Positions 15,255 to 64,000 of a DNA stretch of 64,000 nucleotides are shown here, in pieces; within the stretch, counting starts at the first letter, position 1, and each line of letters begins with the position of its first letter. The position numbers and the translations under genes were made by a program. Origin of the DNA: Auricularia sp. M13 (lineage: Eukaryota; Basidiomycota; Agaricomycetes; Auriculariales; Auriculariaceae); the NCBI GenBank assembly GCA_037042915.1, contig CM073195.1, positions 744,001 to 808,000 on the forward strand, written 5' to 3'. The notes beneath the pieces were generated by a model. It was not told where the DNA came from. It did not search any database and saw nothing but the letters and a program-made list of their open reading frames with translations.

Positions 15255-17415
15255 ATGTCGGACAACAGAGACTACAGCGACTACCAGCTCGTCATCCTCC
15301 AGGAGCCCAAGCAGGTGCGCTCCGGCGGGCCCCTCCCCGCGGCCATCGTCACTGATCACTGCCCCCGCCAGGCCCGGATGTGCGGCGTGGGCGGAAAGGG
15401 TGAGTTCTGGGTGCATGCTGGGCGGTAGCCGCCGGCGCTGAGGCGTGTACAGCGGACAGACGGCCGATAGACCCTCCGCCGGTCGTGCATCTCATCGTCA
15501 ACGAGGACTCGTCGCAGCAGCACGACGGCTACTTCTCGCCGCAATCGTACCTCCAAAACCCGTATTTCCTCATGGTCGCCTCGCTCACGCCGCCGGACCG
15601 CGACGAGGAGCTGCATCACCTCAAGGACGGCAAGACCGTGGCCACCACGGGCTCGACCGTCTCCAGCCTGTATCCGATGAAGCTCGCCGACGGCCAGGAC
15701 GGCGCCATCTTCGTCTTCCCAGACCTCAGCGTCCGCACAGAGGGCAGCTACAGACTCAAATTTACGCTGTACGAGATGGTCGGGTGCGTGCGGCGTGGCG
15801 TGTGCGGCCGAGAGGCTGAACCGCGTCTTCCAGGAACGAGCTCCACTACTGCAAGCAGGTCTCTACGCGTCCGTTTTACGTGTATTCGGCGAAGAAGTTT
15901 CCTGGCATGGAAGGTCTGTAGCCCAGCCTCCTGGCGATCTTGCCAGTCTGACCCTTTGCGCCAGAATCCACGCCGCTCTCGTGCATGCTGGCAGACCAGG
16001 GCATCAAGATTCGGATAAGAAAAGACGTGCGCGGGCGCAGGAATAACATGCCATTAATCACCCAGGTCGAGCCCCTGCCCGACGACGAGGACGACGAGGA
16101 CGACCCAAACGACGGCAATCCGCCGCGCAAGCGCAAGGCGGTGTCCACGTTGCAGCGCGAGGCAGAAGCCGCCGCGGCCGCTGCTGCTGCAGCCGGACCA
16201 GAGACACGCAACAAGCGCAGGCGCACAGATACAAATGGCAATTCTGCGCCAGAGACCATCGAGGACGACACGCCCCAGGACAGCAATAATCAGAACGGCG
16301 CTTCTGGAACCAATTCAGCGCCTGCGAGTAACGGCGCTCAGCGTCCGCCCGTGCCACCTCCCGTTCCGCCGGTACCTGCTCCATTTGACTACGCCGCTCA
16401 GTACGGTTTTGGCATGCCACCTGGCCCTCCGATGCCGTCGATGCAAATGCAGCCTCCGCAGCACTACGGCTACCCTGCCTCGCACTGGGGTGCGCCTCCC
16501 CCGGGTCCGCCAGGCTCAGAGATGTACCCGGGCTATCCTCCCAGACCCGATTATCCGTTCCCTCAGCGCCCTCCGATGCCACACGCCGCTTCCAGCGGGC
16601 ATTATCCCATGCCCCCGCATCCATACGCGCAGCCCTATCCCTATCCTCCCTACGGCAACGGGTACTATGGTCCAGGTCCCGGCATGCCGCCCATGCCTGG
16701 AATCCAGCCTGTCCCCACGCCTCCCAATGTAAACGGTCAGACCGGTGGGACGCCTGGCGACGGAACTGCGCCTGCGACAAATGGAGCGCCTCAACACCAG
16801 CAACAGCAGCAGCAACAACAGCAGCAACAACAACAGCAACAACAGCAGCAGCAGCAGCAACAACAACAACAGCAGCAGCAGCAGCAGCCACCGCAGCAGC
16901 CACCTGCCATGCCAAACGGTGCCCCTGGTTATGACTATTCGCGTGGGTTTCCCAAGCCGCCAACCGCGGGACCATACCCAGGGTACGGCGCTCCGCCGTA
17001 CGGTCAGCCACCATACGACCCGTACTATGCGTTCGCACATCCCGCGTTTGGCATGCACGCAGCGTGGGGTATGCCACCTTACGGCCGCCCCCCGTCGCCC
17101 AACAGCGCTGCTGCTGCCGCTGCCGCCGCTGCCGCCGCCGCACAGGCGGTGCAGGCGCAGGCGCAGCCGGATGGCATGCAAAACCACCAGCAGCCTCAGC
17201 AGCAAGCGCCGTTTGTTAACGGAAACACCAATGGCAATGGCAATGCTGCGGAGCAACCGCGTCCGCCGCTGAGCAATACAGGCGAGAGCCGCGAGCGTAT
17301 CCAACTTGCACCGCTGCGCGACATCACAACGAGTGGCCGCGACGCGGATGCCAACGACCGGGCGAAGAAGAATCCGCTCAACATCGGCTCGCTCATTGAG
17401 CCATCGTCGACATGA
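15255..17415 (+). CDS. Velvet-domain transcription regulator (VosA/VelB-like) with polyQ tail
   Basis: A fungal velvet factor; family members are NF-kB-fold DNA-binding proteins that control sexual development, spores and secondary metabolism. The velvet domain spans exons 1-5 (15255-16050): YQLVILQEPKQARMCGVGG, ADRRPIDPPPVVHLIV, TEGSYRLKFTLYEM and FPGMEESTPLSCMLADQG, in the usual order and closest by eye to VosA. Four introns of 45-60 bp interrupt it. The second half is one exon of low complexity: a basic nuclear-localisation-like cluster (RKRK, KRRR), long Pro/Gly/Tyr-rich stretches, a run of about 30 glutamines (16800-16890) and a polyalanine run near 17105. It ends with RIQLAPLRDI and IGSLIEPSST. 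The tail is much longer than in typical VelB. No frame problem was seen. Confidence 0.92.
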
Positions 17416-18964: not shown

Positions 18965-20334
18965 CTAACGGCGCTGAGTGCCGCGGCCGTAACCGACCTG
19001 GAGGTTGTCGAGCTCGGCCTCGAGCTGCTTGACGGCGCTGTGGGCGAGCTCGAGGTCCTTGTTGAGACGGTCGCGCTCTGCGATAAGCTACAAAAAGTCG
19101 TCAATCTCACTGTCGTTTTGCAAACGGGAGAAGGCAAACGTACGTGCTGCTCCCATTGGCGGAAGCGGGCCTCCTCGGACTTGACCTGCTCGGTGAAGCG
19201 GCGGCGGAGGCCTCCTCCTCCTCCTTGAACTTGGGGTTGTCGAGCTTCTTGACCTTGGGCTCGCCGAACTTGCGGGTCTCCATCTGGGCGAGGCGGTAGT
19301 TCTCGTAGTGCGACTCCTCGGTGGTGGAGATGAGGTCGAGCATGTGGGTGCGGATGATGAGCGAGCGCAGCTTGCGGAAGTCGCAGTGGTTCTCGTTCTC
19401 GACCTCGGCGACGCCCCAGAGGTACTGGCGGCCCTTGACGGTGCGGCCGTCGGCGGTGGTGACGTCCTCGGTCGAGCCGATGATGGAGAACGGCATGGCG
19501 TCCGCGAGCAGGCGGGCATGCTCGGCGCTCTGCGCGTCCTCTGGGTCGATGGGCGGCTGGTAGATGCGGATGTTCTGGGCGGCGATGACGGCGCGGATGC
19601 GCTGCTTGAAGCCCTGGAGGTCGTTCTGGGTGAGCGTGTCGGCCTTGGCGATGACGGGGATGAGGTTGACGCGCGTGCCGAGGCGCTTCATGATCTCGAT
19701 GTCGAGCGGCTTGAGCGTGTGGCCAGTCGCGCGGATGAAGTACAGGCAAGCGTGCACGCGCAAGTCCGTCTTCTCGCTGCGGTGCGGCTGCTGCTCCTGG
19801 CGCATGTACGTCTCGTGCTGGTCGTCAATGAAGTCGATGATGGGCGCCCAGCTGTCGCGGTTGTTGACGTAGTCGCCGAAGCCAGGCGTGTCGATGACTG
19901 TCAGCTTGACCTTGAACGCCTTTTCCTCGAGCTCGGCCTTGATGATTTCGACCTGCGCGCGAGGGTCAGCTGCAGCCCCCATGCTGCACAACCGCATACA
20001 CACCTCAGTGAGCTTGTCGAGCTGCTTCACATGGCGTTTCGAGTAGTTTTTGGGCGGCGAGAGCTCGGTGCTGAACAGCGTGTTGATCAAAGTCGTCTTG
20101 CCCAGCCCAGACTCGCCTGACGCCAAAATTCTCAGCCAGACACACAAGCGCCAGCATCTGCGCACTCACCGACAACCATGATGGTGAAGTGCGCGCCGCG
20201 CTTTGCAACAATTTTGTGCCTCTGCAAGCAGACTGTTGAGCGAACGCGCAACATTTCGCAGAGAGCATAGCGCGACGCACCTGGTTGGGCAGGTTGGCAA
20301 TGCCAATTCCTCCAGCTCCTGCGGGTGCGGCCAT
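18965..20334 (-). CDS. CDC12: Septin, Cdc12/AspC type
   Basis: A GTP-binding filament protein of the septin ring at septa and budding sites. It has the short N-terminus of the Cdc12 group (GIANLPNQ then HKIVAKRGAHFTIMV), P-loop GESGLGKTTLINTLF, switch DTPGFGDYVNNRDSW, AKADTLT and the septin-unique region (GRQYLWGVAEVENENHCDF). A C-terminal coiled coil begins KFKEEEEALRRRFTEQVKSE and ends with LNKDLELAHSAVKQLEAEL. Assignment to Cdc12 rather than Cdc3, Cdc10 or Cdc11 rests on these blocks read by eye. Introns fall near the start, after the P-loop exon, and before the last coiled-coil exon. One base appears to be missing near 19207-19212, between EEEEA and LRRRF. Confidence 0.93.
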
Positions 20335-21747: not shown

Positions 21748-24531
<2,784 letters not shown>

Positions 24532-26475: not shown

Positions 26476-26609
26476 CGATGTGTGAGCAAGGGAATACTCG
26501 GAGCTTTGGAATTTATCTCGCCGTGTGGCGAGCTATCCGGACAGCGGCCCGGGCGCCGCACCGGTTGCGCCGGCTAGCACCGATCTGACTCGGACTTTGG
26601 CTTGCAACC

Positions 26610-27503
26610 ATGCGGAAATCAACAGGACAGCGCGACCGTTTGGCCAAAATTGCCGGCGAGACGCTGGCAGCGATTGAGAATGGCAGCTACATGATTGGAG
26701 TCACTGCCTACCGACTCCGCCCAGCTATCAGCTCGCTCCAGGATCAGACCGAATTCGAGGCGCCCTCATCTTCGCTTTCACAGTGGCAGCAGCCCGCGCC
26801 GGATTTTCAGGCAGCTCAGACGCCTACCACACTGGCTATCACCGAGATTTCTACGCTCGTCGCGCTCCGGAAGTTGGCACAGGATCCCGGAGCTACTGTC
26901 GGCGTCCTGAACTTTGCGAGCGCAAAGCATCCCGGCGGAGGCTTCCTGACGGGCGCACAAGCCCAGGAGGAGTCACTCGCACGGTCCAGCACACTATACT
27001 GCTCTCTCAAATGCCCCATCGGCGCTCAATTCTACGCTGTGCACCGTGATGGAGGCTACTACTCTCACGCCATGATTTGGAGCCCTGGCGTCCTATTTTT
27101 TCGGTCTGACGACGGAGCATGGCTTTCGCCCGTGGCTGCGAGCGTTATTACGAGTGCTGCTGTCAACGCTGGAACGGTCAAGCAACGTCTTTCAGACGAT
27201 GCTCTCAACGATGCCGATGACCGGATCGAGGCATGCATGAGGGAGCGCATGGCACGCATTTTGTGTCTCTTCGAGCGCAAGGGATCGACACACCTCGTGC
27301 TGGGTTCTTTCGGTACAGGAGTATTTAGGAATGACGTTGGCACGGTCGCCAAATTGTGGGCTGAGTTCCTTGGGCCCGGTGGGCGGTTCGAGCGCTCTTT
27401 TCGTCACGTGGAGTTCGCAATTCTGGGACGAGAAACATTTGATGTATTCAAGGCGGCTTTCGAACGCCGATGTGGGCAGCTGTGGGCGCATCTGCCGTCC
27501 TGA
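26610..27503 (+). CDS. Microbial-type poly(ADP-ribose) glycohydrolase (PARG) domain protein
   Basis: An intronless 297-residue gene of the TIGR02452/PARG-catalytic family, macrodomain-like enzymes that release ADP-ribose from modified proteins. The diagnostic loop is visible at residues about 105-125: LNFASAKHPGGGFLTGAQAQ followed by EESLARSSTLY, giving the GGG-x(n)-QEE catalytic signature. The N-terminal part (RDRLAKIAGETLAAIENGSY) and the end (LVLGSFGTGVFRND, RHVEFAILG) match the family in order. It shares a 134-bp promoter region with the divergent D-serine dehydratase gene. The absence of introns is unusual compared with its neighbours and is compatible with an old transfer from bacteria, although this family is widespread in fungi. 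Confidence 0.9.
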   Translation: MRKSTGQRDRLAKIAGETLAAIENGSYMIGVTAYRLRPAISSLQDQTEFEAPSSSLSQWQQPAPDFQAAQTPTTLAITEISTLVALRKLAQDPGATVGVLNFASAKHPGGGFLTGAQAQEESLARSSTLYCSLKCPIGAQFYAVHRDGGYYSHAMIWSPGVLFFRSDDGAWLSPVAASVITSAAVNAGTVKQRLSDDALNDADDRIEACMRERMARILCLFERKGSTHLVLGSFGTGVFRNDVGTVAKLWAEFLGPGGRFERSFRHVEFAILGRETFDVFKAAFERRCGQLWAHLPS

Positions 27504-48534: not shown

Positions 48535-49100
48535 ATCATATTTGGACGGTAAAGGTACGTACTCAAAGCCCTAACTCGCGCGCACGCGCTGATATAATTT
48601 GCATAGGATATAATTAAAGGGTTCGACGGCGAGGAGAGAGTCGCGACCGGGTGTGACCGACCAGCGCGCAGAGGTTCTTCGCGGTCGCGAACTCGGGCCT
48701 GCTGCTTCAAACAAGTCGAGGGGATCGGAGGTGTACGGGCTGAGGTCCAGCGCGGTGCCTGGGGCAAGCAAAGGTCAGTTTCACATTGCAGTCGAGCAAA
48801 GCTAACGAGTCGCGACTTGCACAGATTGTTTTCATATTTCAAATGCAAGGGTATGTACGCGTAGCCCTCATTGATGCGCACGCGCTCATATAATTTGTAG
48901 CGCATATAATTGAGGCGTTCGAGGGCGAGAAGGGAGTCTTGTGCGGCGGACACCGGCCAGCGCGCAGAGCATGGTCGAGGCCGCAGGGTCGTTCCATCGA
49001 GGATGGAATGAGTTGTGGTGGTCGTGGATGTACTGCCCATGATGTAGCGCCGCGGTCTGTGCGGATAAAGCTCCGCATGTCGTTAGAGTAGAGCAGCTGC
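48535..49100. repeat. Two diverged tandem copies of a roughly 300-bp unit
   Basis: A core of about 100 bp near 48570-48670 recurs near 48875-48970. Shared blocks include GCGCACGCGCT, ATATAATTTG, ATATAATT, GGGTTCGA/GCGTTCGA, GGCGAG and CCAGCGCGCAGAG. On the - strand the similarity also holds at protein level (SARWSV...DSLLAVE...NYILCKLYQRVR against SARWPV...DSLLALE...NYMRYKLYERVR), so the unit may be part of a duplicated coding exon. Spacing between copies is about 303 bp. Confidence 0.55.
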
Positions 49101-49628
49101 AGCACGGTGGGCTCGGGTGCCAGCGCTGGGCTTGTGGGTGGCGACGGAGACGGTGGTGGTCCCGCGGAGCACGCGAGCTGGCACGGGACGACGACGCGGC
49201 TGTGGCGCGGGAAGGAAGGAGAGACGGGACGGGACGGTGTGCGACGCGAGAGGTAAGAGGGCAACTCCTATTCTGTCTCCGGCCCGGGATGCTGACTTGC
49301 TCTTTCTCTCTCGGCGACTCGAGCTTCGAGCCGCACGCGCTGCTCTGGCACCTGCACAACCTCATCGTCGAGGCCGACAACGCCAAGTCCAAGCTCAACT
49401 TCAAGAAGCTCTCCAAGAACATGGGCGACAAGCTCGACGGCGAGAAGGGCCGGTGCGCATGTTGCCGTTCGCGCATGCATTTACAGTCGATTGCAAGTTC
49501 GCGCTCATCATGCGTGTTTTTACTTTATTGTGAATTTGGGAATCCCTGACGATGGGTTGTTGCAATACAAAGTTTCACACGATCAGCCTACATACCACCT
49601 CTTAACGTACAACGGATTACATCGTCTA

Positions 49629-49820
49629 TCACTGAGCAGTCCCGACTGCACTTTCCGCCGCAAGCCTGCCGAAGACTACACATTCAAGCAGACTGCTTCC
49701 AGCAAGGCGGTTGCGGCCGTGAATGCCGCCTGTCGCCTCGCCAGCAGCATAAAGACCAGCAATGGTCTTCCCGGAAGTGTCCAAAACTTGCCCGGATGCA
49801 TCGATCTCAATGCCGCCCAT
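49629..49820 (-). pseudogene. 3' exon of a fumarate-reductase-like flavoprotein gene, cut by a transposon
   Basis: Reads on the - strand MGGIEIDASGQVLDTSGK, then GLYAAGEATGGIHGRNRLAG and SLLECVVFGRLAAESA, ending GTAQ. This is the conserved C-terminal FAD-binding end of the soluble fumarate reductase (Osm1) family, where GE-x-TGG-x-HG-x-NRL-x-G is the hallmark. The MGG codons are the insertion point: the 14.1-kb KDZ element starts right after them (counting leftward in gene direction), and the rest of the gene continues at 63900. The gene is therefore broken in this strain. The enzyme family passes electrons to fumarate and supports redox balance under low oxygen. Confidence 0.85.
49812..49820. 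repeat. Target-site duplication of the KDZ element, left copy
   Basis: GCCGCCCAT, identical to 63900-63908. Nine bases match; KDZ-type elements usually duplicate 8, so one base may match by chance. Confidence 0.85.
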
Positions 49821-50110
49821 GAGGTAGCCAAAGGGTCTATTTTCTGGTATAACCCCCACACACTTTGGGTACTACCTAGTATCTGGGGGCGTACCACCTA
49901 GTACCTGGGGCCCCACATACTGGGGGTACCACATAGTAGGGGCCCCACATACTGGGGGTACCACATAGTAGGGGCCCCGCATACTAGGGGTACCACATAG
50001 TAGGGGCCCCAGATTTGTGTACCCAACCGTCATGGGGCCCCATATTTAGTATGCCAAAGACACTACGGGGCCCTTGTACATACTGGTCGCTGAGTCGCGC
50101 ACGGACACTC
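49821..50110 (+). repeat. Left terminal and subterminal region of the KDZ element
   Basis: Holds the inverted terminal motif (TTTCTGGTATAACCCCC at 49840-49856) and a series of GGGGCCCC and GGGGTACC palindromes. Three tandem 32-bp units lie at 49907-49938, 49939-49970 and 49971-50002, the first two identical and the third with two differences, followed by a partial unit. Such repeats are candidate transposase-binding sites. Confidence 0.75.
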
Positions 50111-50203
50111 CCTCGCAAAGTCTACTCAAAAAAAAAAAAAACTACACTAAGTACAAAATGCGCAATTGACAATTACATCCAGCGTCATGGTGCAGAACAC
50201 GTC

Positions 50204-53200
50204 CTATGTGCACGGAGCGGCCCGATTTGTCTTGCGCGCAATGTGCAGGCGGCGCTCACGGTTCCAAGTCGCCAAGTATGTGTGCACGTATACGATTGCC
50301 CGCCGCTGAGTCATATAACTGAGCGACCGCCGAATTTTGAGGAGTCCGCGATTGCCGCATTCCGCCGCACTTGAATTGACGGCAGCAAGGTCAGGGTCGT
50401 TCTTGTAGCTGCTGATCATGCAGCATTTTGAGCAGCGCGTGTGCCCCTTGGCGTGAAAACCGTCGATCACAAAGCGCGTGTTCTTGAAGAACAACGGCTC
50501 ACGCAGCATGCAATAATGTGCGAGCGCGCACGCGAAGTCGTACACGACCGTCTCTGGAGGAATCTCCCAACGAGTGAACAGTGCGGAGAACACATCGTTG
50601 CGACCCTCGCCCTTGGGAATGCAATGAAAGCCGAGGCAGACGAGGTGCGGCACCAGGCGGCCATGAGTCCTCCCGTCTGGCCGCTGATACCATAGGCCTC
50701 GAAATATTTTGAGCAACCAATGCCGCCTGCGCCACCATCTGTGATGACAGAGCGGTCGACCTTGGTGTCTCCCGGAAGATGTGGATAGGCGGGTCGCAGA
50801 CGAACCCTCGGACGGCCGTAGAACGTTCCTGTCTAGACAATATCAGCACCTTCACATCGTTCAATCGGCCGCAGGCGTACCTCCTCCCAATTGTCGCAGT
50901 CGTTGACAGGCACAGCAGGCTCAAAGGTGTGCTCACTGAGGCTGCACATAACCCGGATGGCCCGACGCCGCACGAAGTTCAACGTCACGCAGCATTGTTG
51001 AGTAGGACTGACTCTGCTTCCACTCGTCAGACGCAACGGCCCCGATAGCAGGCACACAGCGCTTCAACACCGGCGCTGCGTTCTCCTCATTGTTCTCCAG
51101 ACAAGCCAAAGCCACCCAGGTCGTTGCCGGCGTAAACAGAAGGACCGACTCATACGCTAATACCTGCACCATGTCAGTCGCTGCGAACTTCTGTCACAGG
51201 AATACGCACCTGGTTGAGCAACTCCAAATACAACCTTCGCCGCTCCTCCTCACTCCCATAGTTCGGGGTAACCACAACACGAAACATGTCACCCAATGCC
51301 TTATCAACAAAGCCAAGCTCATCGGCAATGTCAGGCAAGCTGTCCCGCATGGCTCGGTCGGCAATATCGCGCTTTGAGAGTCGCGATGCAGTCGCTCGCA
51401 CAGCTTGCTTCGTATCGACATCGGCGTCAGGCACAGCACGCGCAGAGGTCTCGTCGCAGTCTTGACTAATACCGCCGGCCTGACTCTTGTTCGCCTTCGT
51501 CAAACTCAGGCGCCAACGAACAGCAGCCTGCGCGCGCTGCCGAATGTGACCCCACACAACCGATGTTGCCTCGATGGGCGGTCTCACGGTCGAACGAATT
51601 GGGGCGCCGGGTAGAATCGTAGTCGGCGGCGTTAACGACGACGTGAGGTACTTTGAGTTGAACCCCGCCGTGACACCATCAAAGATGACGCATTTGGGGT
51701 TCGGTCCGCACTGCTCGCACTGGAAGCTGTCGCCGAGATTCTGCAGTCTGCGAAACGAAAACCATACGCGCCGGAAGGTCTCGTCTGCAACGAACTCGAT
51801 GCTGCTGTCGTGCTCAATATAAGCACGTGATACCACTGTGGCATAGGCGTGAAAGGGAAGTTCGTGCGCGGTGATCGAGCTCGTGAAATTGTTGAGTAAT
51901 TCGTGTGTATAGATGCTGCAGTTGTTGAAATTGAAGAGACCGAGTTCCCGAAGATCCGGACCAACAAAGACCTGAGATATCGTGCATGATGCGCAAGCCT
52001 GAACTTCGATGGCGACAGAGACCGCCCGCTTGGACCCGTAGACAGTGCAGCTCATCGTGCGTTTCGCTGCATCCGGCGCAGCCGAACCTCCACAGCGACA
52101 GCGGCCATTCACACCCAGCGGCAGGATTGCAGGTACCGGATCCACTGACGCGAACCAAGGAACGAGATCGCCAGGCAGACGACACCATCGCGGTGGTCCC
52201 ACAGGCTCATGCGACACACTGCGCTCCTTATCCTTATCCCGATTACTGAGATCTTCAGCTAGGAACGTCGTCAGCTGCGTAATATTGGAAGTCAAGCAAC
52301 GCACCTCTGTGTTGCTGGGCCTCCCGAGCTTCACGCGCGTCGGCCTCTTCGTCGATGATGACTTCAGGATTACCAAGTTCGCGATTCATACGGCCCACGG
52401 ACTCGCGAAGAGAGCGACGTAGTCTTCCTACGTGATGACAGTTTGCGACTCGATCCTTGCTGCATGCCCATGTTCCGGACGTGAACTCGGTCCCTGCGTG
52501 GCTGACCAACACTGGCGGAGCATCAGCCGTCAGGACTGCAAATGTCCACTGAGGCACGCCGGTCTCGGCTTCTCCGCAACCCTCGAGAGGCACGAATTCT
52601 TCGCCATCTGCACCACCAGTTAGACATGACCCGCTATTCATGACTATTGAGACACACGTTCGTCTGATAATATAATCCAAGATGGTCCATTAGGATCCGT
52701 CACCATGCGCACGTGAACACAATCCTTGTGTTTTTTATAATCTGGACAGGGAGCACAGGAATACGTGGCTTTGCCGTCGAGCTCAACGGCAGCAGTGATG
52801 ACGGTCCATCCCGTTACTCCAGGTAGACGACGGCACTCCTCGAAATCGTACATCTGCGCGACCCATGTCCTTGAATCGAGCTGACAGAAAATGACCGTAG
52901 CCTCCTGGACAAGAGCACGATACATCGGCAACAACTGATCGACGGAAAATTTCGACGGCCCAGGCAGCGCTCTCCGCAAGATATTACGCGGCGAGCGAGG
53001 ACAGGAAGCCCTACCGTCGGCTTGCTTCACCCGCTTGCTCGTCGGTGTTCGTGGCACACTGGCCGCAGGTGCCGGCGCCGTCGACGATGCGGTCCGCGAC
53101 GAGCCTGCCCCCGCCGTCAGCGTGGGCAATTCCAGCTCGCCGCTTCGCCTCTCGAAGCATTCACTCAGTCTATCTACGGCGGGCAGTTCATCTTCGTCGA

Positions 53201-53255
53201 TAAGTTTGCGCTTCTTTCCACGACCGCGAGTCGGGGGCGCTTGTAGGTAAGCCAT
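50204..53255 (-). CDS. KDZ-superfamily transposase with CxC-type cysteine cluster
   Basis: Cuts and inserts the surrounding element. N-terminal part (exon 53255 to about 52660): basic GRGKKRKL, then a SWIM-like zinc motif (YSCAPCPDYKKHKDCVHVRM). The middle (52250-51180) has a cysteine cluster (GRCRCGG, CTVYGS, CASC) and the phrase GPDLRELGLFNFNN. FQCEQCGPNPKCVIFDGV is the KDZ hallmark, and VRWRLSLT follows. After an intron near 51172-51205 come VLAYESVLL and CLENNEENAAPVL. The C-terminal RNase H-like core has CLGFHCIPKGEGRNDVFSAL, VVYDFACALAHYC, FVIDGFHAKGHTRCSKCC and NSSAAECGNRGLLKIRRS, giving candidate acidic residues in YDFA, IDGFH and AAECG. By eye it is nearest to the CxC5/CxC6 groups. 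One C appears to be missing near 50648 (AWC to PHLVCLGFH). The exact start and stop are uncertain. Confidence 0.85.
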
Positions 53256-54464
53256 CTCCGTGCTGCCTCGCCCACCTGCGACTCTCCACCGCCCGTTGAC
53301 ACGACTGTCATACGAGCGGCGATGAGAGGCAGCCCCACGCCGTTCACACGAACGTGATACGACGGGCGATGTGGACGGGGCAGCGCGGAGGTGCGGGAAG
53401 GTGGGAAAGGGGGGCGAGCGGGGAGTGTGGCGAGGGGAGAAGGGCGGGCGGGAGGGGGAGAAGGCGCGGTGAGCAGGCGTCGCGCATCGCGCAACTGGCT
53501 GACTCACCGGTGACGGCGCCGGAACGCGCGAATCTGCTGCAGGTCAGCAATACGCAGAGACAAAGTAAAAAATCGGGCGCACCTTAGGGTGCGCGCTGCG
53601 CGCGGCGTGGAGCCTGCGCTGTCCGCGGCGCCCGGGTTCGAGCGCACGGGAGTCCGACGGCGCAGTGCGCCGTGGTGGTGCACCTGGCTGTCGACGGCAG
53701 GGGCGGGCGGCAGCAACGACGCCGCCGCAGTCGGCGGTGGCGCGCTGTCAAAGACGAGAAGGAAGAAAGATTGCGGGCCGAGCCGCGCGATTTGAAGTCC
53801 AGTTCGGACTCCGCAACGGCCGACTCCGACTTGAGGGCGCGCGGGGTTTCAAATGCCCCCCGCTCTCTTTCGCTCTGCCCGCCGTCGTCACAGACGAATG
53901 TGAACGGCGGGCAGCGCGTGTCGAACTGCGGATTAGCACGTACTGTGCATTCGTGGTGGGCGCGCGTGAGCGGGGGCGGGCCAATGATATTGTATTGTAT
54001 CCTGTAGTGCTGGTGACTCTCTTGGCTGACCGTCGTGAATATCTTGCTCGGGCACGCTGTCCATTCCATCCCATCCAATCCCTTCCAATCCTCGTGCTCT
54101 CTCCTCTGTGTCGCCCCGTCGTGCTCTGTGACTGCTCTGCTGTCTGCTGCCTTCCCACCTCCACTCAATCAGTGCCTTTCTTGCTCTCGTGCTCGCTGTC
54201 TTATCGCGCATTCCTAGTTGCTGTGTATCTCTCGATTACGAACATTGGTTTTTTCTCGCGTCTTATGCTGGTGTGAACAAATAAAAAACAAAAGTAAGGT
54301 TTGAAATAAGATTTACCTCCGCGGCAGAAAGCTGAAACTGTACAGGGGCTGCCCTGCGTGGGCCGGCGTCTAATACGGGCGGACTATCGTAGGTGAAGGT
54401 GTGTGACTGAGATTTCAATTCACGTCGATGACATGCTGAAGACAGAAACAGTTTCAATGAGTCA
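53256..54464. other. Non-coding space within the KDZ element
   Basis: 1.2 kb between the transposase start and the stop of the zinc-knuckle gene, both on the - strand. The first 350 bp are very GC-rich and probably hold the transposase promoter; - strand frames upstream of 53255 are open and could add N-terminal residues. Low-complexity overlapping frames at 53584-54280 on both strands have no motif. Confidence 0.4.
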
Positions 54465-55850
54465 TCATGCCGTAGGTTCGTTCTCCTTGTCCTCCCTGTT
54501 CTCCAGTTGTTTGCGCAGGGTCTCGATCTCACGGTCCTTCGCTTCAGTGCGCGCCTTCCAATACTGTACCTGGTCCTCCATGGCCTTGTTCTGTTTCTCG
54601 AGCTCTTTTGCATACTGTAAGCGGAAGGGCTGGAACGTCTCATAAATGGAGTCCCTCATGTTGTCGAGTAGGCCCGGGGCTTCCTTCGTAATCGTCGCCG
54701 ACTGCCAAGTCCTCATGATGCCAGCTCCACCGCGCGGCAGGAAGACACAAAACGCCCAGCCATTAGTGCGGCTGGCCAGCGTATCACCCTGGTCACGTCC
54801 GTGAGGAGCACGGAGTCTAACAAATGAGAAACATACTTTCTGCGCCATCGCCTGAAACATACGAGGTATGCGTTTTGCCTTCTCTGCCTGCGTTGGATAC
54901 TCAGTCTTGCGAAGGCCGTTCCGTTCCAAGTCTGCAGGGTATCAGCTGTGACCACAGGGAGTCCGGCGACGTCTCACCCATGGGTAGGACACCGCCCGAC
55001 GTCGCTGTGAAGCCGCCCTTCAGCAGATACGTCGGCTTCTTGACGTTCTTCTTCTTCTTTGCGGGGTCAGCCTGACCAAGCGGCACATTGGTGATGGTGC
55101 CCAGCGGCTGCGGTGCCACGGCATCTGCACTCGGGGCTGGGGTGACAGAGCCGCCGGCTTCACTGCTCGGCAGCGGCTGCTCCACGTCCATAGCGTCGCC
55201 GTTGCTGCTGCCACCGATAACCTCGCCAGAGTCGTCGTCGTTTCCACCGCCGTTGCCGCCGTCGTCGTCGTCATCATCCTCCTCGTCATCCGTGTCTACA
55301 TACGGCTCGGCGGGGACAAAGTTGGCCAAGGTCTTGCCGTCCGGCATCTTGAGGCCGGCGTTCGTCAACGCCTGAGAGATTTGCGCCTCGTCCGCCACAC
55401 CGTCGTTGAGTTCAAGCACTTCCGCTATGACGGCGTCGATGCGGCGAGACTGCAAGTCGGTATGCGCGGCGATGACGACTTCCTCGGCCCGCGCTGCTTT
55501 GGCGGTCAACGCGTCCGTACCTGACTTCTTGCCCTGCTCGGCATAAGTAATCATAACAGAAAGAGTGATACTGCCACGCACCCCGCATTCCGTCGCAGCA
55601 TGACCCTTCATGGGCGCGTGACACGTCCGACACATCCTGGGCTTGCGCGCCGGCTTGTCCTTGGGCGGCGATGCCATCGTCGATGTCGATGCACGGGTCT
55701 GAGCGCGAGTGCCGTGTGCCTTATGCGAGGGAGTTATCGGCGGCGCAGCTAGCGCCGCCTGCGCCAGTTTTGCCTTTTCTGCGACAACGTGAGTGAGACG
55801 ACGAGAAAAACGGTGCTGGCGGTGTGCTGACTAGATTTCTTAGCCGCCAT
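54465..55850 (-). CDS. KDZ-element protein 2: zinc knuckle, acidic linker and coiled coil
   Basis: Not a named family. The start exon is MAAKKS; a 51-bp intron (about 55780-55830) joins it to KKAKLAQAALAAPPITPSHK. A zinc-knuckle-like motif follows in RMCRTCHAPMKGHAATECG, with spacing C-x2-C-x6-H-x4-C. A helical stretch (about 55400-55550), an acidic D/E run near 55270 and a proline/alanine-rich linker lead to KKPTYLLKGGFTATSGG. The end is a long charged coiled coil (QYAKELEKQNKAMEDQVQYW and ETLRKQLENREDKENEPTA) after introns near 54720-54830 and 54935-54985. It lies behind the transposase on the same strand. A DNA-binding partner or regulator of the transposase is plausible but not shown. Confidence 0.65.
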
Positions 55851-56424
55851 GCTGGCAACTCGTTCGAGGGAGGAGAAAACACAAGGCAGACAAGCTCGTG
55901 GGGCGTCCTTAAAGAGAGAATACGGAGCTCCGTCTTTCCGGTGTGGGCTTATATCTCACTCGCCTACGGATAGCGTCTTTCGCACGCCGGCCGGCCAGAA
56001 GCAAGTCGAGATGTGACCGTTGTGATATGCTCAGACACATCACGGCGCATTGAACCGCTGAGACTTCCTCTTTCCCAAAACTCAGGATATGTCCTCGCGG
56101 CATGGGTGCCTCATCTGCAGGTTGGAACCTGCACGACCACATTTCGCACTCTGGTGTTCGACCAAACCCAACGACCATATTCACTGGAATATTTGGCTAC
56201 CTGCGCAGTCATGACATTACATACACGTTTCATCTTGTCGCTTGCTGCGAAGCGTTTCAAGGATGAATTCCCGCGGCTTCTCGTACAGCCCGACAGCCCT
56301 GAGTTCCCACGCCCAAGCAGTTGCGCGCCACGACCGTCAACCAAATTTCAGGCATAGCCCACGAGCATCTCTCTCGGCTTTGTCTGTTCCCCACCGTCTG
56401 CATCGCGCTTTCAGTAAACTCTCC
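55851..56424. promoter_or_regulatory. Central divergent promoter region of the KDZ element
   Basis: 574 bp between the start codons of the zinc-knuckle gene (-) and the zinc-ribbon gene (+). All four genes of the element point away from this point. Pyrimidine-rich stretches lie before the + strand start (for example CTCTCTCGGCTTTGTCTGTTC near 56369). No operator or TATA box is clear. An alternative in-frame start for the + gene at 56266 also exists. Confidence 0.5.
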
Positions 56425-57912
56425 ATGTTCACCAATCGTCGCATCACCTCGCCGCCGATGGCAAGGATCGCAGCAGCTGCAGGCCGCCAATCGCGGTCCA
56501 CGCCTATCTCTCGTCGTACTCGGTCTGCCCGCGCCGGGGCTTCACACCTAAGCCCATCCGAACAGCTCGATCTCGCTGAGCTGGCCAACGTCGTCTCATG
56601 CAAGGTCGCATACATTCATTATCGTCGCACCCAGCACCCCAACAACTTTTCTCCTGACGTCGAGTTTATCTGCGGCCCGCACGACCCGAGCTTGAAACTT
56701 CGAGGTGTCGAGCCACCACTCTGGTGCGAAATCATGTGCTCCCGGTGCGGGGCTACTGAACGCGATCTCGACTCCTTCGTCGGGCGCGAAGATGCAGAGC
56801 TCACTTTCATCAAAGTGCGTCGTTATTTTGCACTTCCTAGGCTGGACTCTCACTTCGTTATAGTGTCTCAACTGCAACGCATCAAAAGACACCTGTACCC
56901 AGGACGTCGCGCTCGCGAGGTCTCCTCTTCGTTCTGATCCCTATGGCCCGTTCGCAGTGTATGACAGCGAGAAGAAGGAGTTCCGAACATGGCTTGCCCG
57001 GCGTGCTTCAGAGCGTCAGGCCGAGATAGGTGAATTTGTTTCATCACTGACTGTATGCATGTTCTCACTGTCAGCAGATCTAGTCCAGGCACAATCGCGT
57101 TCTCCGTCCGGCTCGCGCACCGCATCCGACGTACCGCACTTCTTCGGAACCGACGAGGAGTCCAGTGATACTGAATCGAACGCTTGGCGCCGCCTCCTCC
57201 ATCGCTCTCGAGGGCCACTTGCAGAACCTGTGAAGAACTCGAAGCCGCGCCCTGTGAAGGCCACTGGCGCCGCGAAATCGTCTATCAGCACCGTCAAAAA
57301 ACCTCGCATCACGGCTCGTCGCCCGACTCGGTCGGCTCAGACGAAGACAACCAGCGCCAAAGCCGCGGGCAAGCAGCGCGCTGCCGCATTGACCAGGACT
57401 CCGAGCCCTCCGCCCGATTCGTCGTCCCTGGGCGGCGACACCGCGGCCAGCCCATCCCTGCACGCAGCTAATCGCGCCGTCGCCCACATCCCCCTCACGC
57501 GGACCTTCGCCTTCAAAACCCGGGAGGTCAAGTTGAATCTTGAGTTGATGGTGAGCATTGGCGCAATTCATTTTGTACCTTCGACTAACAAATGTAGAAT
57601 CGTTCCTACCATGAGCTGACTGTCGCAATCACGGACAACCGCTTGACTTGGAACTGCATGAAGTCCGGTCTCGCGAAGTTCTTCGTTGACGATACGCACG
57701 GATTGGAGGTCTTCGACGCAGTTGGGCAACAGTGGCGCCGTTTTGGCTTAGGTACCTGCATCGGCATTCACGTTTCGCAGCAAACTGTGGTTGCCCGCGT
57801 TGTCCACAGTCGCGCCCTGTCGCTCGAGGTCATCGAAATCCCAACCACGACGGACGACGATACTTCGGCCAAGGCGAGTGTCGGCCAGAAGCGTTTCGCA
57901 GTCGCCCGCTGA
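56425..57912 (+). CDS. KDZ-element protein 3: zinc-ribbon-like protein of unknown function
   Basis: Not recognised. A basic N-terminus (MFTNRRITSPPMARIAAAAG, SRRTRSAR) leads to a helix-rich stretch (SPSEQLDLAELANVVSCKVA). The pair EIMCSRCGATERDLDSF and, across an intron at 56815-56867, KCLNCNASKDTC form a CxxC...CxxC zinc-ribbon-like unit. PYGPFAVYDSEKKEFRTWLA and ARRASERQAEI follow. Introns at about 57030-57077 (joining AEI-DLVQAQ) and 57551-57598 splice in frame. The middle is serine/lysine-rich and disordered (KKPRITARRPTRSAQTK). The C-terminal domain reads HELTVAITDNRLTWNCMKSG and GLEVFDAVGQQWRRFGLGTC, a compact mixed beta fold by composition. The intact splicing argues that it is a functional cargo or accessory gene. 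Confidence 0.65.
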
Positions 57913-59204
57913 AGATGGAAACACGGCCCGCTAAACGTCCCAAAACTGCTTAGATATTTCACTAGACTATGCTCCCCCTCATCATGCTGCTTGAATTTTA
58001 ATCTCCATCTGTGTTCCATATCTCAAATGCTCGTCATCCTGATTTGGTCTTTCGCATTATCCCGGATCGACAAATGATAATCTGTGCCTGCCGATCATGT
58101 ATCCCGGTGGCTGTGCACATGTTTACTGAGATGTTCATCGTCGTCTCGCACGTCCGAAACCCATGAAATGTACGTGCTTTGGGTGTTCACCGCATCGCGT
58201 TGCGGTGAACTACTTAGCATTGTCGAATGGCTGACGCTTGTTTGCAGATCGCCGTACTGAGGCTAAGGTTCCCAAGCATCGGAAACCCGAGGCCGCGCAT
58301 GCCAGTCCAGAGGCAGGTAAGCTCTCGACCGTCAGCATTCGGCATTGAAGTGAGATTAGCTCGCGGTGTAAATGCAGCAGCGTTTGCACTGCGTGCTAAT
58401 TTCACTTCTGTCGCTGAATGGACTGTTTAGTAATTACTGCTCAGCAAAGGTTCAGTGCTAACATACGTCGTGCAGCACGTCTTGCATTTGCACGATGGCC
58501 GCATGCTCATATACGAACCAAACATACAAAGGTAAGTTCGACTGCTGCAACGCATTCGCCGAGTACGTGTCTCAGCCGCACGACGTAATATCTGCATGTT
58601 TGCATCGTGCGGTTTGGACACCTATTCGATTTTGAATGCGTCGTTTCATGCGGGTTTGCTCAGCCAATGCACGGGCTGACGTGATTTCTGCAGCGGAGAT
58701 CGTCCTGTCGGGCACTGTTCCGTCATCGGTGAGCGCTTACCAGCTTTGCGTGCCTGTAACTGATCCGTCCCAAAGGTCCGCCATCTACCCCGGATTCACG
58801 AATAGCTGCTCTCGCTTACCGCGCACGAACATAACCCGGCAGCAAACTGCGCGCATCGGGCGCATATCGCTGGCTTGCATTGCGCCCGGGCGCCCAGCTG
58901 CTGGTACTGTAACGTTGGCGGAGTTACGTTTCGGGACTGTTCCCGGTCATCCGAATCAACCGGCAACTTCCGCATCTCTTTCCGCACCGTCGTCCAGCGC
59001 GTAGACATCGCGCCGCCGCGCCTCTCGTTCCATCTCCACCCCCCCTCCCAACGGCACTGTGCGGAGGGAAATTGCAGTCGTGCAATTCCCTCTGGACTTT
59101 GCCTGTTGCTTGTGACTACGTGAACTGTACAGTCGTGTACTTCGCGAAGGACTCGCAACTTCGTCCCCATCCACGCTGCGCACGTCGCCGCTTGACCCAT
59201 CACG
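57913..59204. other. Non-coding space within the KDZ element
   Basis: 1.3 kb between two + strand genes. A perfect 10-bp hairpin (GTTCACCGCA, 6-nt loop, TGCGGTGAAC) lies at 58184-58209. No frame longer than about 130 codons is present, and none has a motif. The last few hundred bases are pyrimidine-rich and probably the promoter of the large gene. Confidence 0.45.
58184..58209. repeat. Perfect 10-bp inverted repeat
   Basis: GTTCACCGCA, loop TCGCGT, TGCGGTGAAC. It lies about 270 bp downstream of the zinc-ribbon gene's stop codon, so it could be a 3'-end hairpin or a protein-binding palindrome. Confidence 0.5.
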
Positions 59205-62200
59205 ATGCTCGAGGAGAACGAGTCGTTACCGCCAGATGCAGGGGCCAGGTACGTCCGTTTGATCCTCTAGATAGTGCATGATCTGACGATGATCTTGCAC
59301 TATCTAGCACGGATCGGGCGTCATCGCCAACGGCGGGTGCGACGCAGAGGCGCGGGTCGCAACGCGACCCACGCCTGAGGATGTGAGTTCTGTTCACTTT
59401 TGGTGAAGTGATTAGGTGCTCACTACAGGCAGTTCCATCCCTGAGCGGCGCGTCACACCAGGGACGCCGTGGACGTTGACGATTCCCAATGGCTTGACGC
59501 CGTAAGTTCTTTCTCCTGCGGTCGCGCGATACGCTTCTGATCAGGCACATCAGTGAAGAGTACTGGCTCAATTCCCCCGCCTTCGCCCCAGGCCGACTGG
59601 GAACCGTGCGTACCTCGGACCACCATGATGTCTCGAGTCTGATATTCATCTAGATTCTTCAACTACAACGACACCCGGGACAAGTTGCTTTCGTCGTCAG
59701 GCCCCGTTATGTTGGAACCAGCACCACTCTACGAAGACAAATACAGGTGGTATCTGATGATGAAGCACGCCCTGCGCATCGACGAGGATATGAAGAAGAT
59801 TCGTCGCGAGTTGCGCAGGCCCTCCGTAGTGCGGGCGCGACATGCCTTACGCTTGGAGCTCGCACCCAGGCGTCCGAAGATCTATGTCGTGCCTGGTTTT
59901 AAGGAGTACGCGGCTGCATGGTCCGAGCAGTCCTCCATGCCCGGCCAGCCTGGCACCATTCCTCACGACGCCAGTAAGACCACAGAAAAGGCGTTCTTCT
60001 CCAAGCTGGGAGAATGGTACCTTGCAGCCCAGATATGGTGCAACTGGCGCAACCACGAGAACGTCCTAGTCCGGCTCATGCTTGGCGCAGAGGAGGCACG
60101 CGAACGCAGCCAGCTCCCGCCGTCCACAACAAACGCCGACGTTCTGCGCACCTTCATCCCGTTTCATATCGATGAGAAGATGTACGCTGCAGATCCGACC
60201 GCACCCCCGATTGGTCGTCATCATCGTTGGTGGACCTATACGCATTTGCCGGCGCCGCCGGGATATAATCCGCGTCACCGCATCCTCATTCTCAGCAACG
60301 TCGACTACATCCCACCGTTGCCGCCCCGCACTCGACCGAGAATGCGCATCGATGGCCGGTACGGTCCTCACGAGGAGACCCGATATCCCATGTTCCATGA
60401 GCCCACCAGGTGGCACATGGCATTCATCCCGACCGAGAAGGATGGCCGCGTCGAACGGCGCGTGCACTCAACGCTTACCCCCCCGGGACATGGAGTTCTA
60501 CGAAGTCGACTTCGACAACCACTTCATGACGTTCGACTTCGGCAGGACCTACCGCCCGACAAGGGCGCTGCAGAACGCCATGCGCAAGTCCTGGGAGAGA
60601 TTCGGCGACGTCGAGGAGGATCCCGAGCTGCAGTTGCCGGCGAAGTTCGTCGCGCAGCGCCCCTTCAAAGCGGTGTTAACTGGCCGCCAGGCCATGCAGT
60701 TTCTCTTCGACCATAACCTGACGCAGCGCGACGTCAAGGAGACTTTGGCGGCTTGGCAGCGAGCACTCGCGGAACTGCGCGGCTGGCATTCGTACGCGTC
60801 GAGTCGCGCTTGGCTCGCGCGGTTTCTGGCGATCAACAAGCGCATGGTCCCGCTCGCTGCCGACCTTCGCATCAGCAACTACCGCAAATACGCGCGCGGA
60901 GTCTTTACCGACAACGAAACGGTCGCACGCCAATATGCGCAACTCTGTGTTCCGGTCTTCTTTGTGACCACACCGCTCACCCAGTACTGGACAGCAGACC
61001 CCCAGCACGACCAAATTGAGGTGTCTCCGCCGTTCCCCTGCGAGACCCGAGCCTACGATGAAGGTCAATACGGATACCAGCCCGCGCACCTTGTGGCCAG
61101 TCAGGACTACTACGGTGGAGGAAACACGTATTCCGGGGCGGCGTACGGGGATGATGCCATGATCGAGCAGAATGACATAGACTCTGGTGGATACCAGCGT
61201 GAGTGCACATCGTGCGTTTCCCCATTGAGCATGCAGCTGATTATCCACAGCGGCTGTTGAGCAAGCAGGCGCGTCTTCGTCAGCAGTAGCTGGCCAAAAA
61301 CGCAAAGGTACATTCAGTCATGAGATGCGTGCGACACCGACTAATGACTTGCGTATGCAGCCAGTGCGATCGAGAACGCCGAGACTCAGTCGACGAAGAG
61401 CAGCAAGAAAAACAAGAACAAAAAGCATCCACAGGCGATAGGACTGCCGAAGCGTCCTCGATCCACGAAGCCCGAGAGCTACCCATCTTGGTGGCCCGCT
61501 GAATGGCCTGTCGCGCTTGATGCATCGCAAGCCAACTTGGAGCTCGACCGCATGCGCGCTCGCACACTCAAGAAGGCCCAGGATTATCCCGTCCCTGACT
61601 CGAGATATGCGGCGGCGGTGTTTGCCTCTCCTGTACTTGAGCACTTCGGAGCCAGCGCTAACGAGATGAACCGCTCGCGGCTCTTCGCCTCGTATGTCCT
61701 CCTGCGGCCGCACCTACTCTACTCCTTGGCAACGACACCAGTTCGTGAGCTTGTGGTATTCAAGGCCTGGGAGTGGAAACAAATCTTGAACGGCCACCTT
61801 GCGTATGCTCAGCAAGCAGCGTATATGAAACGCCTCGGCTTCCGCGACACGCCCGAGCCCGCAATTGTTGAAGTCGACGATGCTGCTATCGATCACGAAT
61901 TCCCGTCTGTCATCGACAATGTGCTGCAGGCGGCTGCCGCTACATCGACCGCCACTTCGCAGACAACTACACCGTCATCAGCTGCGTCGCAGCTCCCGAC
62001 GTCGACTTCCGCATCCTCGCGCGCATCCACTCCCGGTGCTAGTGATGACGACGACAGCGATATCGACATGGAACCCGTGCACGCGGCCGATCCACCTGCG
62101 GCAAGATACTTCGAGCCGTACGAAGCGGTGCTCGAGCGGAGCCTTGCCAGGGAGGACGAGCGATATCTCTACGAGCCTTCTGCGTGGCGGCACGTCAAAA

Positions 62201-63511
62201 AACGCCAGAGCCGCGCCATGAAGACTTTGACTTGGTGGCAGGAAATGGACTCGAACCTTACCGAAGACGACGTCCTGGAGTTTGCTGCAGTCGGCGAGAC
62301 GAGGCGAACAAGGATGCTGGACGAGATGGAAGATTGCGATATCTGGTGGGATTATGAGCACGGTTGGGTCTTCGTCTTTGAGAACGCTCCGATGGCGCAC
62401 GAGGGTCCTTTCATTGGAGAGCGACTGACGAAGCCTGTGCGACTGTGGGACGGCAACCGGACTAACCCCAAGTACATTCGCGGTACATCCGCGACGCAGA
62501 CAGTGCAGTTGCGCTTGTGGCACTCGCAGAACTGGAGCACAAGGTCAGTTTCTTTCTACTCATGCCCATGAAGCTAGCTCACTCTGTGCAGCGTTCTAGT
62601 GCCAATGATGCCGCTAGGTGCAGTTGGATGTCGCTCGAAGTTGGGGTGGGACCTCAACGACGACGACTACTACTTCTACTTCCCGTCGGTGCCGCGCCGC
62701 GCATATCAGCAACCGGACGAGAACACTTCGTCTGCCACTGCTGCTGCTGCGCCGCCACAGCCTGCTGTCGCACTTCCTCCGCCGCCGCCTGTCGTCGCCG
62801 CTGCCTCGCAGCCCGCACCGCCCGCTGCTCCTACTCCAGTCGCACTGCCTCCGCCGCCGCCTGTCGTCGCCGCTGCCTCGCAGCCCGCACCGCCCGCTGC
62901 TCCTCTCCTGCCGCCGCCGCCGCCTGCTAGCAATGTTGCGCCGCCACCGTCTGCTAATCCGGTCGCGCCGCAGGGCATTTCGAAGCCGCTGAACGACCTG
63001 TTGTCGCCGCAGCGCATCATGCGGTTCAACGACATCGAGCTGACAGAGTGGAACCCTTCGGACGGGGATAAAGAGTACTCTTGGCCCAGTGACCAGGAGC
63101 GTCGTCTCATCGTCTGGGACATTGCTGAGCTCGTTCCGGCTGAGGCTCTTCCAGTTTGACGATAAATTGCGGACCATGTACCCGTCCGATCCGAAGCTGA
63201 CTGCTCAGTCCAACCTGGAGCGGTCTCAGATGATTTGCGCAATCTGGGACTCAGACTCATTTGTGCCCAAGTCGGCAAGCCCGCTGACATCGCCTGAATG
63301 GACACAGCGGATCGAGCCCGTGTTGGCATTCCATACCATTGTCTCCAGCTGGCCGCGCGTCGAGCTCCCTTCGAGGCAGCAGGTATTCGACACAGAAGAC
63401 AAGTTTGTTGAGTTCGAGAAGGCGGTTTGGAATGCGTACGCGCGCACATACTCGGACTATTGCTTCTGCGAGGCTCCTGTTCCGCTGCAGTACCCTGATG
63501 ATGTTCTTTGA
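59205..63511 (+). CDS. KDZ-element protein 4: very large protein of unknown function
   Basis: Not recognised; more than 1,000 residues. The first exon is MLEENESLPPDAG; the small exons up to 59650 cannot all be joined in frame, so the 5' model is uncertain. The main body starts FFNYNDTRDKLLSSSGP and includes YEDKYRWYLMMKHALRID, KLGEWYLAAQIWCNWRNHE, WWTYTHLPAPPGYNPRHRI and RDMEFYEVDFDNHFMTFDFG. Introns near 61200-61252 and 61309-61361 lead to a lysine-rich stretch, then WWPAEWPVALDASQ, VRELVVFKAWEWKQILNGHL, DCDIWWDYEHGWVFVFENAP and TVQLRLWHSQNWST. A proline/alanine-rich linker has two 72-bp-period repeats (62767 and 62839). The final domain ends YCFCEAPVPLQYPDDVL after a frame change near 63130-63145. 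An extra C in the run of seven at 60478-60484 breaks the frame. No transposase, helicase or TET/JBP motif is seen. Confidence 0.6.
59254..59307 (+). other. Intron with a strong internal hairpin
   Basis: The first intron of the large KDZ-element gene runs from GTACGT near 59254 to CTATCTAG near 59307. It contains arms at 59267-59283 and 59291-59307 that pair over 17 bp with one mismatch (CTAGATAGTGCA...TGCACTATCTAG) around a 7-nt loop. Folding would bring the 3' splice site to within a few bases of the donor. Confidence 0.5.
62767..62910 (+). repeat. Two copies of a 72-bp coding repeat
   Basis: The segment coding VALPPPPPVVAAASQPAPP occurs twice, starting at 62767 and 62839, with one base difference seen over the first 66 bp. 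It forms a flexible linker in the large protein. Confidence 0.75.
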
Positions 63512-63779
63512 TAGATAGGACTGCCTGTACTTCGGTTTGCATGTCTCGGTGTCACTCAATGAAATGTTTGCCTGCTTACAGTGCTTGTTCACGACTTGGA
63601 CTCAGTGCAGTTCAAACACTTGGAAGTCTTGGCACCGGCATGCCATCGCCGGCATACCCCAGTCACCGGCATGCATCGCATTGGCATGCCACCCTTACCG
63701 GCATGCCGCACCGGCATTCTTACCCCACTGGCATGCCGGCATGCCGGAGCAATCATTAAGTTGCCCGTCTGAGACTCAG
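63512..63779. repeat. Cluster of GGCATGCC palindromes near the right end of the KDZ element
   Basis: Between about 63638 and 63750 the 8-bp palindrome GGCATGCC or a one-base variant occurs about eight times, often as CCGGCATGCC, with irregular spacing of 10-25 bp. It sits just inside the right terminal region and differs from the GGGGCCCC/GGGGTACC repeats at the left end. Candidate transposase- or host-factor-binding array. Confidence 0.65.
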
Positions 63780-63899
63780 CGCAGTATTGTACAAGGGCCT
63801 GAGGTAGAGTCTGGGGCCCCCTAAGGTAGGGGCCCCTAAGCTATAGGGGTACCCCATATGTGGGGGGGTTATACCAGAAACGCGACCCTATGGTTATCC
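63780..63899 (-). repeat. Right terminal region of the KDZ element
   Basis: Holds the mirror of the left terminal motif (GGGGGTTATACCAGAAA at 63863-63879), then GACCCTATGGTTATCC up to the duplication. GGGGCCCC and GGGGTACCCC palindromes recur, and the GTACAAGGGCC block at about 63790 matches the left-side block in inverted orientation. Confidence 0.75.
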
Positions 63900-63908
63900 G
63901 CCGCCCAT
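63900..63908. repeat. Target-site duplication of the KDZ element, right copy
   Basis: GCCGCCCAT, identical to 49812-49820, directly after the right terminus. Confidence 0.85.
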
Positions 63909-64000
63909 AGTCTGTAGATGCGTCAGTTTTTCCACCATCAGTCAATGCTTGTAGATTCGAGAATACACACATAGTGGACAACGGGCGTGATAAGCGCAGC
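63900..64000 (-). pseudogene. Upstream part of the split fumarate-reductase-like gene, continues beyond the window
   Basis: In gene direction (- strand) an exon at 64000-63971 reads ALITPVVHY, the conserved block before the MGG motif of soluble fumarate reductases. A 59-bp intron (63970-63912) ends CTACAG, and the next exon reads TMGG (63911-63900) before the transposon starts. The same MGG codons recur at 49812-49820 as the target duplication and run on into IEIDASGQV. The two parts thus define one gene, HYT-MGG-IEID, cut by the 14.1-kb element. Confidence 0.85.

Follow-up and report, generated by a model that had tools for sequence, protein, structure and literature searches.

The window, by which we mean the whole 64,000-nucleotide stretch of DNA analysed, contains close to its right end a large insertion that we interpret, with a probability of about 0.9, as a DNA transposon of the cut-and-paste class, belonging to the CxC4 type within the KDZ superfamily, 14,080 bp long, situated within an exon of a fumarate-reductase gene and flanked by an 8-bp duplication, CCGCCCAT. 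The coordinates of the element and of the host sequences around it are as follows.

49629–49820, minus strand: 3' end of the fumarate-reductase gene, 63 codons and the stop, with the duplicated MGG included
49813–49820: left copy of the target-site duplication, CCGCCCAT; 8 bp is preferred, 9 with position 49812
49821–63900: entire element, 14,080 bp
63901–63908: right copy of the target-site duplication, CCGCCCAT; nine identical bases with position 63900
63901–64000, minus strand: upstream side of the fumarate-reductase gene (exon 63971–64000, intron 63912–63970, exon from 63911)

The interrupted host gene

To the right of the element, the minus strand encodes AALITPVVHY, followed by a 59-bp GT-AG intron (63912–63970) and then by a T residue and the MGG of the duplication; the window extends only 92 bases beyond the right duplication, and the remaining body of the gene lies outside it. 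When the flanks are joined with a single copy of the duplication, the sequence becomes AALITPVVHYTMGGIEID... and the reading HYT-MGG-IEID is restored within a peptide of 74 residues. Residues 4–68 of this peptide align with residues 400–466 of Fumarate reductase 2 (6ku6, 5glg; E 1.5e-20), the yeast enzyme, and the alignment is ungapped near the junction. Residues 4–55 also match positions 362–414 of the 414 in the Pfam profile FAD_binding_2 (66.7 bits). The preliminary description of this region had placed the insertion inside a fumarate-reductase gene, with host codons split as HYT-MGG and MGG-IEID, and both points are borne out by the alignment of the joined reading across the junction.

The filled allele reads TMGGG followed by a stop, which is the second codon inside the element, and the encoded protein loses its 60 C-terminal residues, a part that aligns with the last stretch of the profile of the FAD-binding domain. 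Because these residues are removed, the disrupted allele should be null, in keeping with the loss of a fumarate-reductase allele proposed earlier and here regarded as probable.

Ends of the element

The nine bases GCCGCCCAT are present at both 49812–49820 and 63900–63908. This 9-mer occurs seven times in the 64-kb window against 0.90 expected, and its recurrence alone is little proof of insertion. The ends are defined instead by the register of two inverted repeats, which extend inward for about 52 bp.

49821–49872, plus strand: left terminal inverted repeat, 40/52 positions identical to the right one, ungapped
63849–63900, minus strand: right terminal inverted repeat, paired with 49821–49872

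The identity of 40/52 is obtained with the right end at 63900, the other nine registers tried giving 11–21 matches, and 2000 pairs drawn at random within the first 49 kb, each scored at the best of ten registers, reached 28/52 at most. A repeat scan of 49000–64000 likewise returned as its longest inverted pair the arms 49825–49872 and 63849–63896, which are 81 percent complementary. Since the inverted ends fall into register only when the right end is set at 63900, a duplication of 8 bp is preferred, the element most likely occupies 49821–63900, and the ninth identical flanking base is most likely a chance likeness. Read inward, the ends begin GAGG.. and CGGA..; their outermost four bases agree at one position only, so that the placement of the ends to the base rests on the register together with the duplication.

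The earlier reading was of a 9-bp duplication and a right end at 63899. The nine flanking bases are indeed identical, but the register of the inverted ends favors 8 bp, and the right end was probably placed one base short. That the same insertion truly made a 9-bp duplication is unlikely: the nine bases on either side speak for it, and duplication length is not rigid among relatives, 4–8 bp being reported for the Cryptococcus elements KDZ2 and KDZ3 (PMC12810828), but the inverted repeats would then match at 20/52 positions as against 40/52, and a one-base indel near one end would be required. In addition, 8 bp is the length given for Zisupton and Dileera (PMC12730594) and for Cryptococcus KDZ1 (PMC12810828).

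Within the inverted repeats, the 17-base motif TTTCTGGTATAACCCCC is exact at 49841–49857 and, inverted, at 63864–63880, and these are its two occurrences in the window; no further matches with up to three mismatches were found in the 64 kb. In shuffled sequences the motif had a mean of 0.07 matches, and 1 of 100 shuffles contained two matches at up to three mismatches. The motif had been described as terminal: it is exact, paired and inverted as claimed, but it is subterminal, beginning 20 bases inward of each element end. No second copy of the element and no solo ends were found in the window by searches with the 17-mer or by blastn and tblastx against bases 1–49800. The sole exact match to the 17-mer among viral_contigs, in L001, was taken as chance, other shared matches being 18 bases or shorter.

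Subterminal octamer arrays

Inside of the inverted repeats at the left end, and overlapping with them at the right, there are arrays of two GC-rich octamers, GGGGCCCC and GGGGTACC.

49907–50041: left subterminal array of GGGGCCCC and GGGGTACC octamers
49907, 49939, 49971, 50003, 50034: GGGGCCCC in the left array
49923, 49955, 49987: GGGGTACC in the left array
63813–63855: right subterminal array, with GGGGCCCC at 63813 and 63829 and GGGGTACC at 63846

Seven of the left octamers, from 49907 to 50003, follow one another at 16-bp spacing, and the spacings in the right array are 16 and 17 bp. All 11 of the plus-strand octamers in the 64-kb window (seven of GGGGCCCC and four of GGGGTACC) are located in these two subterminal regions, which combine to about 180 bp. 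When the window was simulated 100 times with a first-order Markov model, such octamers numbered 1.48 on average (at most 4) over the full length, and no more than one in the 360 terminal bases. GGGGCCCC is fully palindromic, and GGGGTACC holds the palindrome GGTACC; GGTACCCC, the complement of GGGGTACC, has a single occurrence, at 63848, overlapping the GGGGTACC at 63846. The octamers on the left belong to a local tandem repeat with a 32-bp unit and are therefore not independent of one another, but the two motifs and their spacing are found again at the element's right end. The arrays are candidate transposase-binding sites, judging from their arrangement.

Transposition of this element would then begin with recognition by the transposase of the GGGGCCCC/GGGGTACC arrays, with their 16-bp spacing, and of the 52-bp inverted repeats. 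The enzyme would pair the two ends and then cut and join them, leaving a stagger of 8 bp that the host's repair would fill in, giving rise to the target duplication. Cutting and joining with a stagger, followed by repair, is the general mechanism of DDE transposases.

A separate cluster of CCGGCATGCC-like palindromes is located at 63635–63747, near the right end only, and five of the window's seven copies of GGCATGCC are in this same interval.

Transposase gene

The transposase is encoded on the minus strand in the left part of the element.

50204–53255, minus strand: transposase gene, modelled by eye with five exons and four GT-AG introns
51753–52148, minus strand: CxC4 cysteine cluster (PF18717), 139.7 bits against a cut-off of 26.9
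50261–50673, minus strand: KDZ transposase core (PF18758), below the cut-off of 26.6

The four introns are 46–50 bp long (52608–52657, 52259–52304, 51164–51209 and 50833–50880). The third exon contains the CxC4 cluster, which covers positions 3–130 of the 130 in the profile and is of a type found with KDZ transposases; the KDZ domain is represented, by its C-terminal half, in the last exon. Against the PF18758 cut-off of 26.6 bits, the unbroken KDZ piece scores 20.3 bits (E 5e-4, profile 119–217), and the piece in which an X is placed at a frame break scores 25.5 bits (E 1.3e-5, profile 75–217). The cysteine cluster and the KDZ piece are on the same strand and in one gene model, and it is because a CxC4 cluster and a sub-threshold KDZ match occur in one gene that we call the product a probable KDZ transposase, in support of the type first assigned to the element.

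Two pieces of the transposase gave 1 and 14 pattern-matched stretches in viral_contigs, 0 of them confirmed as relatives, and the C-terminal piece had no match among phages; these are not fungal genome collections, and the absence of relatives there says little.

Cargo genes

The remainder of the element contains three blocks of open frames, which we refer to as cargo A, B, and C.

54465–55677, minus strand: cargo A, two overlapping open frames
56215–57619, plus strand: cargo B, two overlapping open frames
59712–63511, plus strand: cargo C, one or more genes, with open frames across 3.8 kb

Cargo A encodes an N-terminal C-x2-C-x5-GH-x4-C motif and an acidic stretch, and has no Pfam family above cut-off. 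Cargo B has none at E up to 1, and none is above cut-off in the five frames of cargo C that were scanned. Two near-identical 72-bp units at 62767–62908 in cargo C (97 percent matches) code for a proline/alanine-rich segment. Of the 139 stop-to-stop frames in the element that reach 60 aa, 23 were scanned against Pfam, with the cargo genes taken unspliced, and besides CxC4 and KDZ these gave sub-threshold matches only, at E 0.02 or worse. Two pieces of cargo C modelled with AlphaFold2 without an alignment had mean pLDDT values of 33.0 and 32.1 and gave no usable fold, and a search of viral_contigs, which are not fungal genomes, for relatives of a cargo piece gave four pattern-matched stretches, 0 of them confirmed. 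What the cargo does is a guess: the three blocks may simply be carried along, or they may assist transposition or escape from silencing.

Frame breaks and alternative readings

The element had been called complete, but in the coding sense this is not borne out, as there are two frame discontinuities in the transposase and one in a cargo gene. Those in the transposase are in exon 4 (about 50.9–51.0 kb) and in exon 5 (about 50.65 kb), the latter within the KDZ catalytic core; that of cargo C falls in a run of C near 60.48 kb. An intron at the exon 5 break was considered and rejected, the reading being continuous on either side in conserved sequence, and the KDZ match lengthening across the break. 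The exon 4 break is possibly an unusual intron. With the transposase frame broken twice and that of cargo C once, this copy may not be capable of autonomous transposition.

Two host genes, and only these two, were checked for similar breaks. In the first, a frame at 22507–22815 aligns with residues 177–273 of PRP43 (3kx2), and in the following frame the alignment resumes at residue 269, leaving no room for an intron between the two; the frame change falls within a conserved stretch, at 22507–22830. PRP43 is a splicing helicase that is essential in yeast. The second is a septin gene (best PDB match Cdc12; PF00735, 341.6 bits), in the C-terminal part of which, at 19080–19270, there is an apparent frame change, a call that leans on the C-terminal consensus; the second septin frame has no PDB match. 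Because the host PRP43 gene breaks in a like manner, assembly indels are about as likely as decay to explain the breaks in the element.

These observations bear on whether the copy is a relic, its transposase breaks being true mutations and its movement, if any, possible only with the help of another copy. Two discontinuities in the transposase, one of them in the catalytic core, fit such a history, as does the cargo C break at a run of C, but the same kind of break in PRP43, and probably in the septin gene, makes the assembly seem indel-bearing, and we hold the relic reading to be possible though somewhat doubtful. The signs of indel errors could be taken further, to suggest that the assembly is a chimaera joining unrelated sequence inside the gene; this we regard as extremely improbable, since inverted ends, a duplication, and a restored reading would not be expected at the same two points. 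Quite improbable, too, is a composite origin, either by nesting of two elements or by capture of host genes, with the plus-strand region at about 56–63.5 kb outside of the original KDZ unit. The scanned plus-strand frames are without Pfam matches above cut-off, and at 14 kb the element is larger than Cryptococcus KDZ1–3, for which about 9–11 kb is reported (PMC12810828); against this, among the 25 inverted pairs listed, out of 41, no second terminal-like pair lies inside the element, and its G+C content of 0.56–0.61 per 2 kb falls inside the range found elsewhere in the window. Insertion of a single KDZ transposon accordingly remains the preferred reading.

Relationship to described KDZ elements

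KDZ elements reportedly received their name in a PNAS paper of 2014. The preliminary description held that they are known mostly from their transposase genes, a view that is out of date: three papers describe complete elements (PMC12810828, PMC12510652, PMC12730594), and because these include inverted repeats and duplications, there is nothing new in a whole KDZ element whose ends are defined. In Cryptococcus neoformans, complete KDZ1, KDZ2, and KDZ3 elements of about 11, 9.2, and 10 kb are reported with inverted repeats of 241, 139, and 169 bp, respectively, with duplications, and with insertions into a gene (PMC12810828). PMC12510652 likewise describes KDZ elements, about 11 kb in size, that have inverted repeats and duplications; Kojima 2025 (PMC12730594) covers complete elements of the fungal Zisupton, Dileera, and Kyakuja families; and for Marasmius oreades the inverted-repeat motifs of KDZ and Plavaka elements are characterised in PMC8290104. 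A paper on nematode Zisupton elements, which have inverted repeats and in which no duplications were detected (PMC9297572), and one on hAT elements (PMC9674265) have no bearing on the classification. No paper was found in the literature searched for a KDZ transposase together with CxC4.

The element has the CxC4 cluster, the terminal inverted repeats, and, by the register of those repeats, the 8-bp duplication that are traits of the KDZ superfamily. It shares with Cryptococcus KDZ1–3, as they are presented in PMC12810828, a large and complete structure, a probable KDZ transposase with a cysteine cluster, inverted repeats, duplications, and insertion into a gene. It differs in being larger, at 14.1 kb, and in having CxC4 rather than CxC1, and its 52-bp imperfect repeats with octamer arrays contrast with their repeats of 139–241 bp (PMC12810828). 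The 8-bp duplication is shared with Zisupton and Dileera, and terminal inverted repeats with Zisupton also, but the families treated in that paper are TET/JBP-bearing (PMC12730594), whereas no Pfam match to a TET/JBP dioxygenase was found in the 23 of 139 frames scanned here, with cargo unspliced. The Laccaria Kyakuja element has a related KDZ transposase, but is described as lacking inverted repeats, with ends of CA..TG and duplications of 7 bp (PMC12730594). The element has none of these three features: its ends are GAGG../CGGA.., inverted repeats are present, and 8–9 flanking bases are identical.

These differences raise the tentative idea, which we consider rather doubtful, that the element stands for a CxC4-type KDZ family with an end plan distinct from that of the long-inverted-repeat KDZ elements. 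Each end would consist of a short imperfect repeat and an array of GC-rich octamers every 16 bp, GGGGCCCC alternating with GGGGTACC, read by a multimer of the cysteine-cluster protein, each step amounting to one and a half turns of the helix, and cargo A–C would be partners specific to this transposase.

The element is an ordinary member of its group and leaves the known principles of KDZ elements unchanged. As a well-bounded CxC4-type copy with an empty-site reading, it can serve as a seed in searching for further copies, and also for short non-autonomous derivatives reduced to the ends, and its 16-bp octamer array allows binding by the cysteine-cluster protein to be tested directly. It also marks a fumarate-reductase allele that is probably disabled.

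Other features of the window

The host genes in the window include those for a Mid1 channel component, a septin, a glycogen synthase, and PRP43, and the gene content and short introns fit a fungus, probably a basidiomycete in view of the abundance of KDZ elements in that group. Searches of the window with Rfam at gathering scores and with ARAGORN returned nothing. Overlapping frames at 5521–8309 have AAA and AAA_lid_6 domains and probably encode one multi-AAA protein, and an open frame at 26589–27503 codes for a microbial-type PARG catalytic domain (PF10021, 127.5 bits). A CAG/CAA repeat at 16792–16900 encodes a long glutamine run within the host frame 15952–17415.
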